Positions 256 to 44,870 of a DNA stretch of 47,465 nt are shown here, one piece after another. The notes beneath the pieces were generated by a model. That model saw only the letters and a program-made list of their open reading frames with translations. It had not been told where the DNA came from and did not search any database. The position numbers and the translations under genes were made by a program. Origin of the DNA: Erysipelatoclostridium sp. AM42-17 (lineage in GTDB: Bacteria > Bacillota_I > Bacilli_A > Erysipelotrichales > Coprobacillaceae); assembly GCF_003480255.1 (NCBI RefSeq), contig NZ_QUIN01000019.1:1-47465 (forward strand), in the 5' to 3' direction. Numbering within the stretch: position 1 is the stretch's first letter; the number at the start of each line of letters is the position of its first letter.

Positions 256-736
256 AATAGCGTTTTCAACTTGGGAAGAAGATGTTGAATTAGCTAGAAG
301 TTTGTGGGGAAATCCACAAGTAACAAGATATATTTGTGCTAGTGGTAAAATGAGCGAAGAAGAGATAACGCATCGTTTAAAATTAGAGATGACAAACCAA
401 ATGAAATATCATGTACAATACTGGCCGATATTTATTTTGGATAGTCATGAATTAATAGGATGTTGTGGATTAAGACCATATAAAGATTATCAATATGAAA
501 TGGGGATACATTTACGACCTCAGTTTTGGAACAAAGGTTATGCATTAGAAGCTTGTAAAGCAGTGATTGATTATGCATTGAATTATTTACACGCAGAAAG
601 TTTATTTGCGGGACATCATCCTAAAAATAAAGCATCTCAAAAGTTATTAATAAAGCTGGGATTTCAATATGTAAGGGATGAATTTTATAAACCAACAGGG
701 CTTTATCATCCATCCTATAAGTTAAAGAAAAATTAA
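224..736 (+). CDS. GNAT family N-acetyltransferase (RimJ/RimL-like)
   Basis: A protein of about 170 residues. The N-terminal KTSRIAFSTW segment matches the TERL-x-LR-W opening of RimJ/RimL-type acetyltransferases. The middle has EMGIHLRPQFWNKGYALEA, the Q/R-x-x-G-x-G/A acetyl-CoA pyrophosphate loop, and the end has NKASQKLLIKLGFQYV. The ATG at 224 was chosen because GGAG lies 6 nt upstream at 214-217. An ATG at 242 is an alternative start that fits the family N-terminus equally well. The frame stays open upstream to 146, but that extension is hydrophobic and has no ribosome-binding site. The gene overlaps the preceding GNAT gene. Family is sure; substrate is unknown. Confidence 0.85.
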   Translation: MERSYFMKTSRIAFSTWEEDVELARSLWGNPQVTRYICASGKMSEEEITHRLKLEMTNQMKYHVQYWPIFILDSHELIGCCGLRPYKDYQYEMGIHLRPQFWNKGYALEACKAVIDYALNYLHAESLFAGHHPKNKASQKLLIKLGFQYVRDEFYKPTGLYHPSYKLKKN

Positions 737-12451: not shown

Positions 12452-12517
12452 AATATTCTCCTTCAATAAAGTGCCATTCTATTATATCCAAATATAAAAG
12501 GTTAAGTCAATTATAAT

Positions 12518-12547
12518 GAAAATAAAAAAACCTCGATATAATCGAGG
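12518..12547 (-). terminator. Intrinsic terminator of minus-strand tRNA operon
   Basis: Stem CCTCGAT/ATCGAGG (12541-12547 with 12531-12537 on plus), loop of 3 nt, followed on minus by a T7 run. It lies 13 nt after the tRNA-Leu. Confidence 0.9.
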
Positions 12548-12559
12548 AATTTTATTAAT

Positions 12560-12643
12560 TGGTGCGGGTGACAGGAATCGAACCTGCACGCCATAGGCGC
12601 TAGATCCTAAGTCTAGTGCGTCTGCCAGTTTCGCCACACCCGC
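12560..12643 (-). tRNA. tRNA-Leu(TAG)
   Basis: 84-nt class II tRNA with GCGGGTG/CACCCGC acceptor, anticodon stem CTAGA/TCTAG, loop CTTAGGA (anticodon TAG), long variable arm and encoded CCA. Last gene of the operon. Confidence 0.96.
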
Positions 12644-12651
12644 ATAAAAAA

Positions 12652-12727
12652 TGGTGACTCGCAGGCGATTCGAACGCCTGACCCTCTGATTAAAAGTCAG
12701 ATGCTCTACCAACTGAGCTAGCGAGTC
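12652..12727 (-). tRNA. tRNA-Lys(TTT)
   Basis: Acceptor GACTCGC/GCGAGTC, anticodon stem TCTGA/TCAGA, loop CTTTTAA (anticodon TTT), CCA encoded. Identical to the tRNA-Lys at 47132. Confidence 0.97.
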
Positions 12728-12733
12728 ATTTTA

Positions 12734-12809
<76 letters not shown>

Positions 12810-12819
12810 TTATAAAAAA

Positions 12820-12895
12820 TGGTGGAGGTTAACGGGCTCGAACCGCTGACCCTCTGCTTGTAAAGCAGATGCTCTCCCAACTGAGCTAAACCTCC
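12820..12895 (-). tRNA. tRNA-Val(TAC)
   Basis: Acceptor GGAGGTT/AACCTCC, anticodon stem TCTGC/GCAGA, loop TTTACAA (anticodon TAC), CCA encoded. Differs from the tRNA-Val at 46791 by one base, at the first loop position. Confidence 0.97.
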
Positions 12896-12903
12896 AAAAA
12901 ATA

Positions 12904-12979
12904 TGGTGACTCGTACGGGATTCGAACCCGTGAATGCATGCGTGAAAGGCATGTGAGTTAACCGTTTCTCCAACGAGCC
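12904..12979 (-). tRNA. tRNA-Glu(TTC)
   Basis: Acceptor GGCTCGT/ACGAGTC with one G-T pair, anticodon stem CATGC/GCATG, loop CTTTCAC (anticodon TTC), CCA encoded. Confidence 0.97.
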
Positions 12980-12982
12980 ACA

Positions 12983-13058
12983 TGGCGCTTGAAGTAGGAC
13001 TCGAACCTACGACCGATCGGTTAACAGCCGATTGCTCTACCAACTGAGCTATTCAAGC
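12983..13058 (-). tRNA. tRNA-Asn(GTT)
   Basis: Acceptor GCTTGAA/TTCAAGC, G discriminator, anticodon stem ATCGG/CCGAT, loop CTGTTAA (anticodon GTT), CCA encoded. First gene of the operon Asn-Glu-Val-Thr-Lys-Leu. Confidence 0.97.
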
Positions 13059-15844: not shown

Positions 15845-15879
15845 AAATATTCCTAGTTGAATGACTAGGAATATTTTTT
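15843..15879. terminator. Bidirectional terminator between dipeptidase and mscL
   Basis: Stem AAAATATTCCTAGT (15844-15857) / ACTAGGAATATTTT (15864-15877), loop of 6 nt, with A- and T-runs on both sides. It covers both convergent stop codons. Confidence 0.9.
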
Positions 15880-16309
15880 ATAGATCACTTGTACAATGTG
15901 GACATTTAGTAGCTTCGATTGAAATCTCGCTTTTACAATAAGGACAAATCTTAGTTGTAACAGGAGCAGGTTCTTTGTCACTGTTACGAAGTTTATTCAT
16001 TGCCTTTACAAACAAGAATACAACAAATGCCATAATAAGGAAATTAATCACACCAGAAATAAATGTTCCATAATTGACTGTAGAAACGCCGGCTGCTTTA
16101 GCAGCTTCTAAAGTTTTATAATGTTGACCATCTAGTGCAAAAAATAAATTATTAAAATCTAAACGACCAGTAACCAGGGATAGAATGGGCATCATAATAT
16201 TATTAACTAATGATGTGACTAATGAATTAAAAGCGCCCCCAATAATTACCCCAACAGCAAGATCAATCATGTTTCCTTTGATTGCAAATTCTTTAAATTC
16301 TTTTAACAT
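15878..16309 (-). CDS. mscL: Large-conductance mechanosensitive channel MscL with C-terminal zinc ribbon
   Basis: A 143-residue MscL, a homopentameric channel that opens under membrane tension in hypo-osmotic shock. The N-terminal helix [20 protein letters not shown] leads into TM1, and a periplasmic loop and TM2 ([18 protein letters not shown]) follow. Instead of the usual amphipathic C-terminal bundle alone, the protein ends in [18 protein letters not shown], a four-cysteine zinc ribbon. GGAAGGA precedes the ATG. On minus, a TATAAT at 16344-16339 could be its -10 box, just past the terminator of the upstream small RNA. Confidence 0.95.
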
Positions 16310-16360
16310 ACTATCCTTCCTTTCCTTATTATATTTGTATTATAGTGTGCCGTTTTTGTC

Positions 16361-16391
16361 AAATAAAAAAGGAAAGTGATACACTTTCCTT
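16361..16391 (-). terminator. Intrinsic terminator of minus-strand small RNA
   Basis: Perfect 10-bp stem AAGGAAAGTG/CACTTTCCTT with a 3-nt loop (16369-16391 on plus), followed on minus by TTTTTTATTTG. The T-tract exists only on the minus strand, and no protein gene on minus ends here. Confidence 0.85.
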
Positions 16392-16497
16392 GAACTGTTA
16401 GGGAAAAGAACAGTTTTATTATGAATTCCTAGAGGGAAAGCTAGGAATGTAGTCACCTTTGGGGAGGGAAAATGAATTGATTTTCTTTTTGACTACA
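16362..16497 (-). ncRNA. Candidate trans-acting small RNA with three CCC-containing hairpin loops
   Basis: Fills most of the 325-nt gap between mscL and the RpiR gene. On minus: -10 TATACT at 16508-16503, then hairpin 1 with outer stem GTAGTCA/TGACTAC (16496-16490 with 16455-16449) and an unpaired CCCTCCCC; hairpin 2 with 8-bp stem ATTCCTAG/CTAGGAAT and loop CTTTCCCT (16440-16433); hairpin 3 with 7-bp stem AACTGTT/AACAGTT and loop CTTTTCCCT (16408-16400); then the terminator. The -35 region is T-rich and poor, so an activator may be needed. Pyrimidine loops of this kind pair with Shine-Dalgarno sites in known Bacillota small RNAs. I do not match it to a named family. Confidence 0.6.
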
Positions 16498-16601
16498 CTG
16501 TTAGTATAGAAATAAAGAATGTTTAAAAAAAGGAAGAATTGTCAAAAATTGTGGGAAAGTGAATTTAAAAAACAAGCATACACAAATAACAAGACATAGT
16601 G

Positions 16602-16634: not shown

Positions 16635-17453
16635 GTGAAGAGTTTATTTTACCGATTAATTATATTTTTAGATACAGCAAGTGAAGAGGATACAAATTAT
16701 AATATTGCATGGTACATGGCTCATCATTTTGCAGAAGTGGCTACAATGGGGATTAGTCAATTAGCCCGCGCTTGTTTTGTTTCTCCGGCTACGATTTCTC
16801 GCTTTTGTCGTGCATTAGGTTATGAAAATTTTGCTCATTTAAAACAAGAATGTGCTTCTTTTGCGCCAGATAGTCGAAAATTTAATAATTTAATTAATGT
16901 ACCTTTAGATATGATGAAAAATGATCCTCAAGCTTGTACTCAATATTATAGTGATCAAGTATGCTTGGCAATTAGTCAATTATCAAAAACATTAGATTGG
17001 CATGTCATTGATCAAGTTTTAAAGTTGATTCATGATAGTGAATCGGTTGCTTTTTTTGGAACTCAGTTTTCTCATTCAGCAGCATTGCATTTTCAAACTG
17101 ATTTATTAATGTTAGAGAAGTTTACTATGGCTTATATGGAATTGGATCGACAAATTGATTGTGCTAAATCTTTAGATGAAAATAGTGTGGCGATTATTGT
17201 GACTGTTAATGGTTATTATGCTCGCAGTAGTTCTAAAGTCATGGCTTATTTAAAAAAGGCACATTGTAAGATTGTTTTAATAACAAACAATCCAGAGATT
17301 CAGTTAGATGTACCTATAGATTATAAGATTGTCTTAGGAAAAAGTAGTCAAAGAAAAACTGGGAAACATACACTTCTTACGGCTATGGAATTAATGTCAC
17401 TTAGATATTATTCAATTTATTATCCAGATGTAAAAGAAAAGATTATTGAATAG
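16635..17453 (+). CDS. RpiR (MurR/RpiR) family transcriptional regulator
   Basis: A 272-residue regulator from the GTG at 16635, chosen because GGAGGA (16622-16627) is spaced 7 nt upstream. The N-terminal ~75 residues are the RpiR HTH_6 domain, with TMGISQLARACFVSPATISRFCRALGY as the helix-turn-helix. The C-terminal half is a SIS-like sugar-phosphate-binding domain (SVAFFGTQFSHSAALHFQ, then IIVTVNGYYARSSSKVMAYL). The usual S-x-S-G phosphosugar loop is not conserved, so the ligand may not be a sugar phosphate. The gene is followed after 10 nt by fumarase alpha, so it probably controls fumarate/malate metabolism. That link is inference from context. Confidence 0.88.
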   Translation: MKSLFYRLIIFLDTASEEDTNYNIAWYMAHHFAEVATMGISQLARACFVSPATISRFCRALGYENFAHLKQECASFAPDSRKFNNLINVPLDMMKNDPQACTQYYSDQVCLAISQLSKTLDWHVIDQVLKLIHDSESVAFFGTQFSHSAALHFQTDLLMLEKFTMAYMELDRQIDCAKSLDENSVAIIVTVNGYYARSSSKVMAYLKKAHCKIVLITNNPEIQLDVPIDYKIVLGKSSQRKTGKHTLLTAMELMSLRYYSIYYPDVKEKIIE

Positions 17454-18966: not shown

Positions 18967-20223
18967 ATGAAATTATTTAAAAAGAAAACAGATTATTCAT
19001 ATTATAGTTCGTATAATTCTAAATCGAGAAGAGTACGAGTTGATCGTGTTGTTGTTGCGGCTATTGCGGGGGTTGTACTCTTTGTAGCAATCGTTGCTTT
19101 TTTAAATTTAAATCGTATTAAATTAATGGTTAAAGGTTATTCTTTTAGTACGGCTAATGAGATTGTCGCATCATTTGATAGTGGTGAAGAAAAAGAAATC
19201 TTATCTCATGATAAAATGGATCATATTTTAAATTGGGCTCATGAATCATCAAAGGTATCTTTATTTGATGAATATGAAAAATATTGGTCTTATCATAAGA
19301 AGATGAAATATAGTGAAGTTGTTGAATTTGTTGATAGTGTATTTAATAATCAAGTTCCTCAATTGAAATCAATGGGTTATGATGAAAAGACAATATGGTC
19401 ATTACTTAAAAAAGATGCTTCTAAATCAGATATGCAATATTTAATTGACAATCATTTAACAAATGAAGCAACAAAGGAATACCGTAAAGTCAAAGGATAT
19501 AAGTTAAAAAATATGTTAGCTTACATTGAAAAATATAAAGAGGTTCATGATTATAATTATGCAGTCAATATTGTGAATTATCCTTTTATTGTTTCAAGTA
19601 ATGGAGATGCTAATGTTAAATATGAAATCAGCAATCCTGATTCTTTATTAACTTTAGTAAAAAAAGGATTCTATTTACCGGAAGATTATGAACCTAAAGA
19701 TTTAGTTGTTCCTAATGTAAGTGTGGCTCCTGATTGTGAAAATAATAAATTAAGAAAAGCAGCAGCCAAAGCATTTGAAGAAATGGCTAAAGCTGCTGAA
19801 AAAGAAGATCTTCATTTAGTGTTAAATAGTGGATATCGTTCTTATGCAGACCAAACAAAGACATATAAAGAATTTGAAACAAAATATGGTGGACAATATG
19901 CAGCTGAATATGTGGCTATCCCTGGAGGTAGTGAACATCAAACTGGATTAGGTATTGATGTGACAGCTCAAAGTGTAGTAGAAGGAAAGAAACTTGTATT
20001 TGGTGATACAGAAGAATATGATTGGGTTATTAAACACTGTAGTGATTATGGTTTCATTATTCGTTTTGAAGAAGGAACTGACAACATTACTGGTATTGCC
20101 CATGAACCTTGGCATGTTCGTTATGTTGGAAAAGCAGTAGCTAAAGAAATCATTAAAAACAAATGGACTTTTGAAGAATATTGTTTATATAAAAATGTGA
20201 TACCATCATTTAAGAAAGATTAA
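18967..20223 (+). CDS. D-alanyl-D-alanine carboxypeptidase, VanY/M15B family
   Basis: A 418-residue membrane-anchored cell-wall peptidase. A short basic cytoplasmic N-terminus precedes one transmembrane segment (residues ~29-48). An extracellular region of about 200 residues of unknown fold follows. The VanY catalytic domain has NSGYRSYADQTKTYKEF, zinc ligands in GGSEHQTGLGIDVTAQ (H-x6-D) and the final HEPWHVRYVG (Glu base and third zinc His). It trims the terminal D-Ala of peptidoglycan stems. AAAGGAGAG precedes the ATG. No vancomycin-resistance genes are nearby, so this is a housekeeping member. Confidence 0.92.
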   Translation: MKLFKKKTDYSYYSSYNSKSRRVRVDRVVVAAIAGVVLFVAIVAFLNLNRIKLMVKGYSFSTANEIVASFDSGEEKEILSHDKMDHILNWAHESSKVSLFDEYEKYWSYHKKMKYSEVVEFVDSVFNNQVPQLKSMGYDEKTIWSLLKKDASKSDMQYLIDNHLTNEATKEYRKVKGYKLKNMLAYIEKYKEVHDYNYAVNIVNYPFIVSSNGDANVKYEISNPDSLLTLVKKGFYLPEDYEPKDLVVPNVSVAPDCENNKLRKAAAKAFEEMAKAAEKEDLHLVLNSGYRSYADQTKTYKEFETKYGGQYAAEYVAIPGGSEHQTGLGIDVTAQSVVEGKKLVFGDTEEYDWVIKHCSDYGFIIRFEEGTDNITGIAHEPWHVRYVGKAVAKEIIKNKWTFEEYCLYKNVIPSFKKD

Positions 20224-20249
20224 TCTAGAGTTTACCTCTAGATTTTTTA
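20222..20249 (+). terminator. Intrinsic terminator between VanY and radical SAM genes
   Basis: 8-bp stem ATCTAGAG/CTCTAGAT (20223-20230, 20236-20243), loop TTTAC, T6. The next gene's ribosome-binding site starts only 2 nt after the T-tract. Confidence 0.85.
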
Positions 20250-20259
20250 TAGGGAAAAT

Positions 20260-23810: not shown

Positions 23811-24290
23811 ATGCCACAAAATAAAAGAGAAAGTATTATTTATTCAATTATTGTATGTTTTTTAATGGTTTTTGTAATGTCTATTTACAACGTGACACTT
23901 CATCATGGTGAATTGACTTTAGCGGTTGTCAAGGCAGCTTGGTTAGGTTTTCCGATTGGTTTTATTTTTGCTTTATTTTTTGATTTAGTTATTGTATCCA
24001 AAATAGCTAAAGGTTTTGCTTTTCGTTATCTAATCAAATCTCATGATAAACCACTTAAAATAGCAATTTGTATTTCATCATGTATGGTTGTTTGTATGGT
24101 CATTATCATGTCTTTATATGGTGCTTTAGAAGCTTGTGTTACAATGGGTCAATTTAATGCTTTACCTATTATTTGGTTAAGTAATATACCTAAAAATTTT
24201 ATTATGGCTTTACCATTACAGCTCATGATTGTAGGACCTGTTTCAAGAAAGGTGTTTCGTAGTTTATTTCCGCTTGGAACCGTAAAATAG
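23811..24290 (+). CDS. DUF2798 family membrane protein
   Basis: A 159-residue protein with four predicted transmembrane helices in two similar halves (IIYSIIVCFLMVFVMSIYN and AWLGFPIGFIFALFFDL; then IAICISSCMVVCMVIIMSLYG and IPKNFIMALPLQLMIVGP). VGPVSRKVF near the end and the paired-hairpin layout are typical of DUF2798. Function unknown. AAAGGGAGG lies 8 nt before the ATG. It is expressed behind a strong leader terminator (23753-23793), so it is probably induced conditionally. Confidence 0.8.
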   Translation: MPQNKRESIIYSIIVCFLMVFVMSIYNVTLHHGELTLAVVKAAWLGFPIGFIFALFFDLVIVSKIAKGFAFRYLIKSHDKPLKIAICISSCMVVCMVIIMSLYGALEACVTMGQFNALPIIWLSNIPKNFIMALPLQLMIVGPVSRKVFRSLFPLGTVK

Positions 24291-44421: not shown

Positions 44422-44456
44422 TAAAAAAATCTAGCTGGCTGCTAGATTTTTTATTT
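44422..44456. terminator. Bidirectional terminator
   Basis: AAAAAATCTAGC/GCTAGATTTTTT (about 44424-44452), loop TGGCT, T-rich on both sides. It lies between convergent alr and the thioredoxin-fold gene. Confidence 0.88.
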
Positions 44457-44870
44457 AAATAATTGTGCTAAACGATAATATGATAGAGCACCATCTTTTT
44501 GTTTTGTCACTTTTCCTTTTTCTAAAACAAAAGTTGAAGGAACAGTACCATCTGATGTTTTAAATGTTTTTTGAATATATTTTGTTGCATCACTTTCGCT
44601 ATCTAGATTTACATAATAAATACGATCTCTACGATTTTTCTTTAAGTATTTTAAGCATACATCTTGATAATTTAAAGTTGTATTATCGCTATCTTTACCA
44701 ACAACAACGACAAAACTATCTTTATCTTTAATTTTTGATTCTAGTTTTGTTTGGCTAATTGTTGTCATTTCTACATGGGTAACAGTACGATAGCCATATA
44801 AACAAAGAAAAACAACAAGTACTAATCCAAAAACACTTATTTCTTTCCATAATTTTTTAAGTATTTTCAT
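44451..44870 (-). CDS. Membrane-anchored thioredoxin-fold protein without C-x-x-C
   Basis: A 139-residue protein with one N-terminal membrane anchor (residues 12-29) and a thioredoxin-like domain (bacteriocin-accessory/DUF6568-like). SFVVVVGKDSDNT is the first strand, RIYYVNLDSESDATKYIQK the next, and SDGTVPSTFVLEKGKVTK has the cis-Pro loop. The active-site C-x-x-C is replaced (only one Cys, in DVCLKYL), so it is not a normal oxidoreductase. GAGGAGG-type sequence precedes the ATG. Confidence 0.7.
   Translation of the reverse strand: MKILKKLWKEISVFGLVLVVFLCLYGYRTVTHVEMTTISQTKLESKIKDKDSFVVVVGKDSDNTTLNYQDVCLKYLKKNRRDRIYYVNLDSESDATKYIQKTFKTSDGTVPSTFVLEKGKVTKQKDGALSYYRLAQLFK

Follow-up and report, generated by a model that had tools for sequence, protein, structure and literature searches.

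A conserved small RNA with repeated C-rich loops complementary to Shine-Dalgarno sequences, a candidate translational regulator in an Erysipelotrichaceae-like family

The small RNA (sRNA) described here is encoded on the minus strand of the window (the whole stretch of DNA analysed, 47,465 nucleotides), in the gap between mscL, on the same strand, and a divergently oriented rpiR-type regulator gene. A first-pass annotation had proposed a minus-strand sRNA with C-rich loops that match Shine-Dalgarno (SD) sites, and the fold, the strand and the conservation of the gene all support that proposal. The loops are complementary to GGGAAA, GGGAGG and similar SD sequences. By analogy with known systems, the RNA is probably an independent sRNA that acts in trans by base pairing, and its redundant UCCC loops would block the ribosome-binding sites of several mRNAs. 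It is a conserved candidate regulatory sRNA for an Erysipelotrichaceae-like family in whose genomes neither Hfq nor CsrA was detected. No earlier description of an sRNA in this group was found in the open-access literature, including excerpts of PMC11109978 and PMC6429828; most of the subscription literature lies outside that coverage.

Every element named at first pass, namely a minus-strand promoter, three hairpins, C-rich segments and a one-sided terminator, is present in the window, and the -10 box TATACT lies on the minus strand at 16508-16503 (Table 1). The sRNA has a predicted folding energy of -35.3 kcal/mol (z -5.18), and none of 200 shuffled sequences folds equally well. The CCC segments had all been described as single-stranded. 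This description holds for hairpins 2 and 3 and for the CCCC that follows the first CCC of hairpin 1 (predicted unpaired probability 0.90-1.00), but not for the first CCC itself, within CCCTCCCC (0.09-0.17). A terminator scan of 2 kb found two terminator-like sites, both on the minus strand, where 0.9 would be expected, and the T-tract occurs on that strand only, as claimed. No coding frame of note was found on the sRNA's own strand, also in line with the first reading, and a plus-strand open reading frame of 64 codons (16185-16379) overlaps the 3' end of the sRNA and mscL. Elsewhere in the window, minus-strand open reading frames of 57-77 codons (12482-13058) lie atop a tRNA cluster and are probably spurious.

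Table 1. Features of the sRNA locus in the window
Feature	Position	Strand	Basis or remark
sRNA	16362..16497	minus	5' end inferred from -10 box, 3' end from terminator
rpiR-type regulator (HTH_6, SIS), divergent neighbour	16635..17453, start approximate	plus	family search
mscL, downstream neighbour	15878..16309	minus	family search
Upstream element TCCCACAATTTTTGACAATT, candidate activator site	16537..16556	minus	in register with relatives' TCACATATTTTTTGACA element
-10 box TATACT, no good -35	16503..16508	minus	sequence; -35 judged by eye
Hairpin 1	16447..16498	minus	closed by GTGTAGTCA; fold
CCCTCCCC in hairpin 1	16468-16461	minus	first CCC predicted mostly paired
Hairpin 2, ATTCCTAG-CTTTCCCT-CTAGGAAT	16425..16448	minus	8-bp stem, loop CTTTCCCT; fold
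Hairpin 3, AACTGTT-CTTTTCCCT-AACAGTT	16393..16415	minus	7-bp stem, loop CTTTTCCCT; fold
Intrinsic terminator, stem (16391-16369) and T-tract	16362..16391	minus	perfect 10-bp stem; window loop without CCC

Taken singly, hairpins of this loop type are no commoner in the 47-kb window than chance predicts (12 found; 60 shuffles give an expectation of 11.7), but clusters of at least two are found twice against an expected 0.15. The other cluster (265-319, minus strand) is not followed by a T-tract. The decisive support for the sRNA is, on comparative sequence evidence, its conservation in relatives. A scan with the MscL protein led to two contigs that carry the order rpiR, structured gap, mscL (L001 and L003), and through these to a search set of 43 genomes from one family, which we take to be Erysipelotrichaceae-like. 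Matches to rpiR at E 1e-60 are present in 35 of the 43 genomes; 30 such loci were fetched and read, and 22 contain the same kind of RNA. When read loci, covariance-model searches and further stretches are tallied by eye, 32 of the 43 genomes carry the sRNA. It was not found in the other genomes of the set (G010, G012, G014, G015, G018, G020, G021, G022, G029, G033 and G034), among which G010, G014 and G022 were classed by the model searches and not from the rpiR locus. The sRNA lies near an rpiR-type gene in 24 carriers (22 read, G024 and G032 by coordinates), at a distance of about 460-540 nt in nine of the read loci. Eight carriers (G009, G023, G025, G026, G040, G041, G043 and G045) have no rpiR match at E 1e-60, which implies that the sRNA can persist without rpiR. 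Taken together, the sequence comparisons indicate a real conserved gene family. Upstream of rpiR in one of the genomes without the sRNA (G018, locus L094), there is a promoter-like stretch and a GTAG start, with no cluster of CCC-loop hairpins; this is possibly a decayed or altered relative.

Family members carry two to four loops on a varying number of hairpins. Those of group A (L089-L093 and the copies of G040, G041, G043 and G045) have a GTAGTC...GACTAC hairpin with TTTTCCCTT, followed by further CCC-loop hairpins; the terminator loop contains CCC too, except in L092, and one loop reads CTTCTTT in G040, G041 and G043. In group B (L081, L082 and L095-L097) there are two hairpins with CCC loops, and CCTCCCAA occurs in one of them. 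Group C (L098-L105, L107, L109, L123 and L127-L130) has three hairpins, the third of which is the terminator, and in L123 the terminator loop has lost its CCC. L106 and L108 are diverged members. The window member has three hairpins, and its terminator loop is plain.

Genomes carry one to four copies, and eight of the nine group A genomes have a second one. No second copy was found within the window's own 47 kb, and a candidate on G044:C15 was judged to be a chance match. In G039, one sibling (L181) has a tadA-like gene and an SRP RNA close by, another is situated between cation-pump-like and tatD-like genes (gene names by eye), and a third, decayed-looking one (L180, about 1970-2150; G039:C1 near 234971) comes after a gene for an iron-type ABC transporter, again by eye. 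A sibling in G042 (L142, L186) follows what looks like the same transporter gene. In G045, two copies form a tandem, and each has an upstream element of its own (L187, G045:C1:2183686-2184065).

The constancy of the loops was measured in 39 members, comprising 32 of the main-locus type, the window included, and 7 siblings; L184 and L189 are identical, and L136, L186 and the second copy of the G045 tandem were left out. CCC is present in 110 of 131 predicted hairpin loops, as compared with a mean of 12.5 and a maximum of 17 in 40 shuffled sets, and the minimum-energy fold leaves 116 of 124 CCC segments unpaired, a share of 0.94 where shuffled sets average 0.71 and reach at most 0.85. UCCC occurs in 108 of the 110 CCC loops, which are found in 36 forms on 45 different stem ends, with CTTTCCCT being used 15 times. 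The members are related, so these counts reflect constancy of a design and not 110 separate events. In relatives the loops are kept and many stems are changed, and the CCC loops do not vary freely, which would have spoken against the first-pass proposal. Pairing of the stems is likewise kept. In an alignment of ten group C sequences, 93.6% of cells pair, versus 37-50% with slid partners, and six pairs of the terminator stem have changed at both positions. Hairpin 2 is almost invariant in this alignment and hairpin 1 is partly misaligned; the covariation rests mainly on the terminator stem, and a measure based on further pair types was not above shuffles (426 of 500).

Two covariance models were built without the window sequence: R1 from ten group C sequences and R2 from five group A sequences. 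The top match of R1 in the 47 kb is the window sRNA (16460-16362; 24.7 bits, E 0.012; next match, 20.5 bits), as is that of R2 (16500-16365; 27.3 bits, E 3.4e-4; next match, 20.6 bits, E 0.0087). The second R2 match (44423-44547, minus strand) overlaps a coding frame and is probably due to chance. Among 294 genomes of the order, R1 has matches at E 0.1 in 36, of which 27 belong to the family, and R2 matched 27 of the 43 family genomes; these counts include chance matches and miss carriers, mostly of group B. R1 matches outside the family involve nine genomes (E 0.001-0.08), and the four loci inspected (L138, L143, L144 and L145) look like chance, as do L146 (G018) and the R2 matches in G014, G021 and G022. 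Rfam models exist for the LhrC, csRNA and RsaE/RoxS sRNAs. At the gathering threshold, Rfam 15 detected only tRNA in the window and only one SRP RNA in 12 relative loci, and at E up to 10 the gap gave nine sub-threshold matches, none of which is to a C-rich sRNA family. As far as these searches reach, the sRNA appears to belong to no described sequence family.

The weak -35 region had been taken at first pass as a sign of controlled expression, and it is indeed accompanied by a conserved upstream element at a fixed distance. Among the 32 main-locus (rpiR-locus) members, the first TCAC precedes the GTAG-type start by 60-61 nt in 25 (by script), and in five more (L099, L109, L184, L189 and L191) a second TCACAT occurs at that distance by eye; the element is absent from L108. 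The window has a diverged copy, TCCCACAATTTTTGACAATT, with TTGACA in register. An element at fixed distance above a poor -35 suggests an activator. The element looks like a direct repeat (TCACA and TGACA at a distance of 12 bp) and is, as a guess, reminiscent of OmpR-class response regulators. The element also differs from what we take to be the CiaR site. None of the seven siblings has the main-locus element; AACCAT is present in four of them, and a similar CCAT stretch occurs further up in the others (by eye). With up to two mismatches, the element has 247 matches in the 43 genomes, against 91 for the reversed pattern, and neither a regulon nor a regulator could be read from these matches. 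In each of L177 (G017:C2 near 203-209 kb) and L178 (G002:C101 near 21-27 kb), a few kb contain three near-matches to the element (TCACATAATTTTTGACA and variants); those of L177 lie near two similar genes and a transposase-like gene (by eye).

These features are consistent with the following scheme. A regulator bound at the upstream element would switch on the promoter, which lacks a good -35, and RNA polymerase would produce a transcript of about 136 nt, stopping at the gene's own terminator. The hairpins would display redundant (U)UUCCC(U) loops, which may pair with G-rich ribosome-binding sites that have the core GGGAAA, or also GGGAGG, and this pairing would block translation of several mRNAs. 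The blocking mechanism, and with it the direction of regulation, is read from the design of the RNA. The loops would be interchangeable units, so hairpins and whole gene copies could be gained or lost.

So understood, the family fits, by analogy, a known kind of sRNA that blocks ribosome-binding sites with UCCC loops, as exemplified by LhrC, csRNAs, RoxS/RsaE/FsrA and IsrR. Unpaired UCCC-type motifs on a short structured RNA are found in the 39 members, a putative promoter and a predicted intrinsic terminator are located on the same strand, and multicopy siblings occur in group A genomes. Excerpts of the cited papers permit a closer comparison. In Listeria monocytogenes, redundant UCCC loops of LhrC bind an SD region, and LhrC1-5 are multicopy and need no Hfq for that effect (PMC4132741, in part). 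Hfq (PF17209), which an Hfq-dependent sRNA would require in its genome, was detected in 0 of 43 family genomes of unstated completeness, and in 5 of 14 in the control. The present sRNA has its motifs in two to four hairpin loops, and homology to LhrC1-5 is not detected, given the lack of an Rfam match; moreover, the LhrC activator is reported to be LisRK, whereas here there is only a putative activator site. The csRNAs of Streptococcus are similar in being siblings, partly in tandem, that are driven by an activator and pair at the SD region, but they are controlled by CiaR (PMC4507080 and PMC4211561, excerpts). C-rich regions of RoxS/RsaE and FsrA, from Bacillus and Staphylococcus, contact mRNAs (PMC8216469, in part); these RNAs differ in that there is no Rfam match at the gathering threshold and in that the present family has two to four similar hairpins and siblings. 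IsrR of Staphylococcus aureus has three C-rich regions able to pair with ribosome-binding sites, but a Fur box is predicted in its promoter (PMC11257911, excerpt). The comparison suggests that yet another branch uses the multi-UCCC-loop design of Listeria, Streptococcus, Staphylococcus and Bacillus, with no common sequence family detected. Since members have two, three or four loops and siblings differ in their promoters, dose and redundancy among sibling sRNAs would become open to experiment.

A more speculative reading, which we regard as unlikely, is that the RNA is a modular device for displaying loops. A UUUCCC bait loop would be carried on unrelated stems, with hairpins and genes being added or lost, and the differing upstream elements of the siblings would feed several signals into one Hfq-free pool of anti-SD loops. 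This pool would perhaps act by the total number of loops, possibly by sequestering mRNAs, a partner RNA or a protein as a multivalent sponge, and not as one sRNA with one target.

Somewhat more doubtful is a decoy RNA, whose repeated loops would bind and titrate either a G-rich partner RNA or a protein with affinity for RNA, in the manner of CsrB and CsrA, with mRNA pairing being secondary. Near-identical loops on different stems, a variable number of hairpins and the presence of siblings also fit a multivalent decoy. CsrB and RsmY similarly have many hairpins with the same loop, which is GGA and binds CsrA. However, the loops on the minus strand, which carries the terminator, are CCC in this family, and CsrA (PF02599) was not detected in any of the 43 family genomes (control, 3 of 14). 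We know of no C-loop-binding protein for this bacterial group. G-rich sponge RNAs that bind C-rich sRNAs do exist, such as RosA (PMC8216469, excerpt), but the complementarity of the loop to SD-type sequences is like that of known sRNAs that block ribosome-binding sites, and it favours the preferred reading of mRNA pairing.

In the window, and at 4 of the 30 rpiR loci read in relatives (contig ends cut some of these loci), mscL follows the sRNA on the same strand. This could imply a cis-acting leader or attenuator that controls mscL by premature termination, and the best promoter-like pair of mscL itself (TTGACA 16362-16357 and TATAAT 16344-16339) has a spacer of only 12 nt by eye. Such a leader is very unlikely. 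mscL was not found at the other 26 loci and thus appears, from the sequences, to be no fixed part of the locus; also, siblings adjoin other genes, and no antiterminator pairing was recognised in the folds by eye. Still less probable is that the locus encodes a small protein or is a mobile repeat. In some members a frame of 20-odd codons starts at an ATG close to hairpin 2, but the longest frames differ in length and sequence, with no shared frame and no clear SD before them (by eye), and, although some genomes have several copies, the number does not exceed four and the rpiR neighbourhood is kept in most carriers. A CsrB-like RNA from the plus strand, the loops of which would present AGGGAAAG as AGGGA sites for CsrA, has a negligible chance of being correct, as both the terminator and the conserved region resembling a promoter point to the minus strand and CsrA was not detected in the genomes searched. 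On these grounds the leader, the plus-strand RNA and the coding frame were rejected.

Under the preferred reading of a trans-acting sRNA, the targets would be mRNAs with G-rich start regions, and no conserved target emerged among the candidates examined (radical SAM, nrdD and metQ-like genes). The radical SAM gene had been proposed on the basis of AGGGAAAA (20251-20258), but this site is not conserved: GGGAAA is present at the start in 2 of 29 homologues (L347 and L356; 30 loci less L357, in which the start is missing, with a 31st match having no locus), and in none of the 16 most similar ones (at least 68% identity; by eye). The GGGAGG sites proposed for the genes at 23811, 25910, 30573 and 32331 do exist, but they are ordinary SD sequences and say nothing on targeting. 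In six close genomes, AGGGAAAG followed by ATG has 89 matches, compared with 39 for the reversed pattern, and 40 open frames of at least 60 codons come after such sites. Each of five protein families, named by eye, recurs in two of the six genomes: NrdD, a MetQ-like lipoprotein, a helicase-like protein, a secreted protein and an 82-residue protein. For nrdD and the metQ-like gene, the site drifts, with AGGGAAA in 4 of 30 and 4 of 22 starts, respectively (by eye), and both were rejected as conserved targets; AGGAGGGAA, an ordinary strong SD, occurs in eight of nine close nrdD genes (by eye). Start sites with AGGGAAAG are not clearly more common in the 32 carriers (533 forward versus 194 control) than in the 11 non-carriers (220 versus 103), and the sRNA genes themselves add a few matches. 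Directly before the radical SAM gene there is also a hairpin, TCTAGAG...CTCTAGA (20215-20259), whose 3' arm is found in about 23 of the 29 homologues by eye and which is probably the terminator of the preceding gene.
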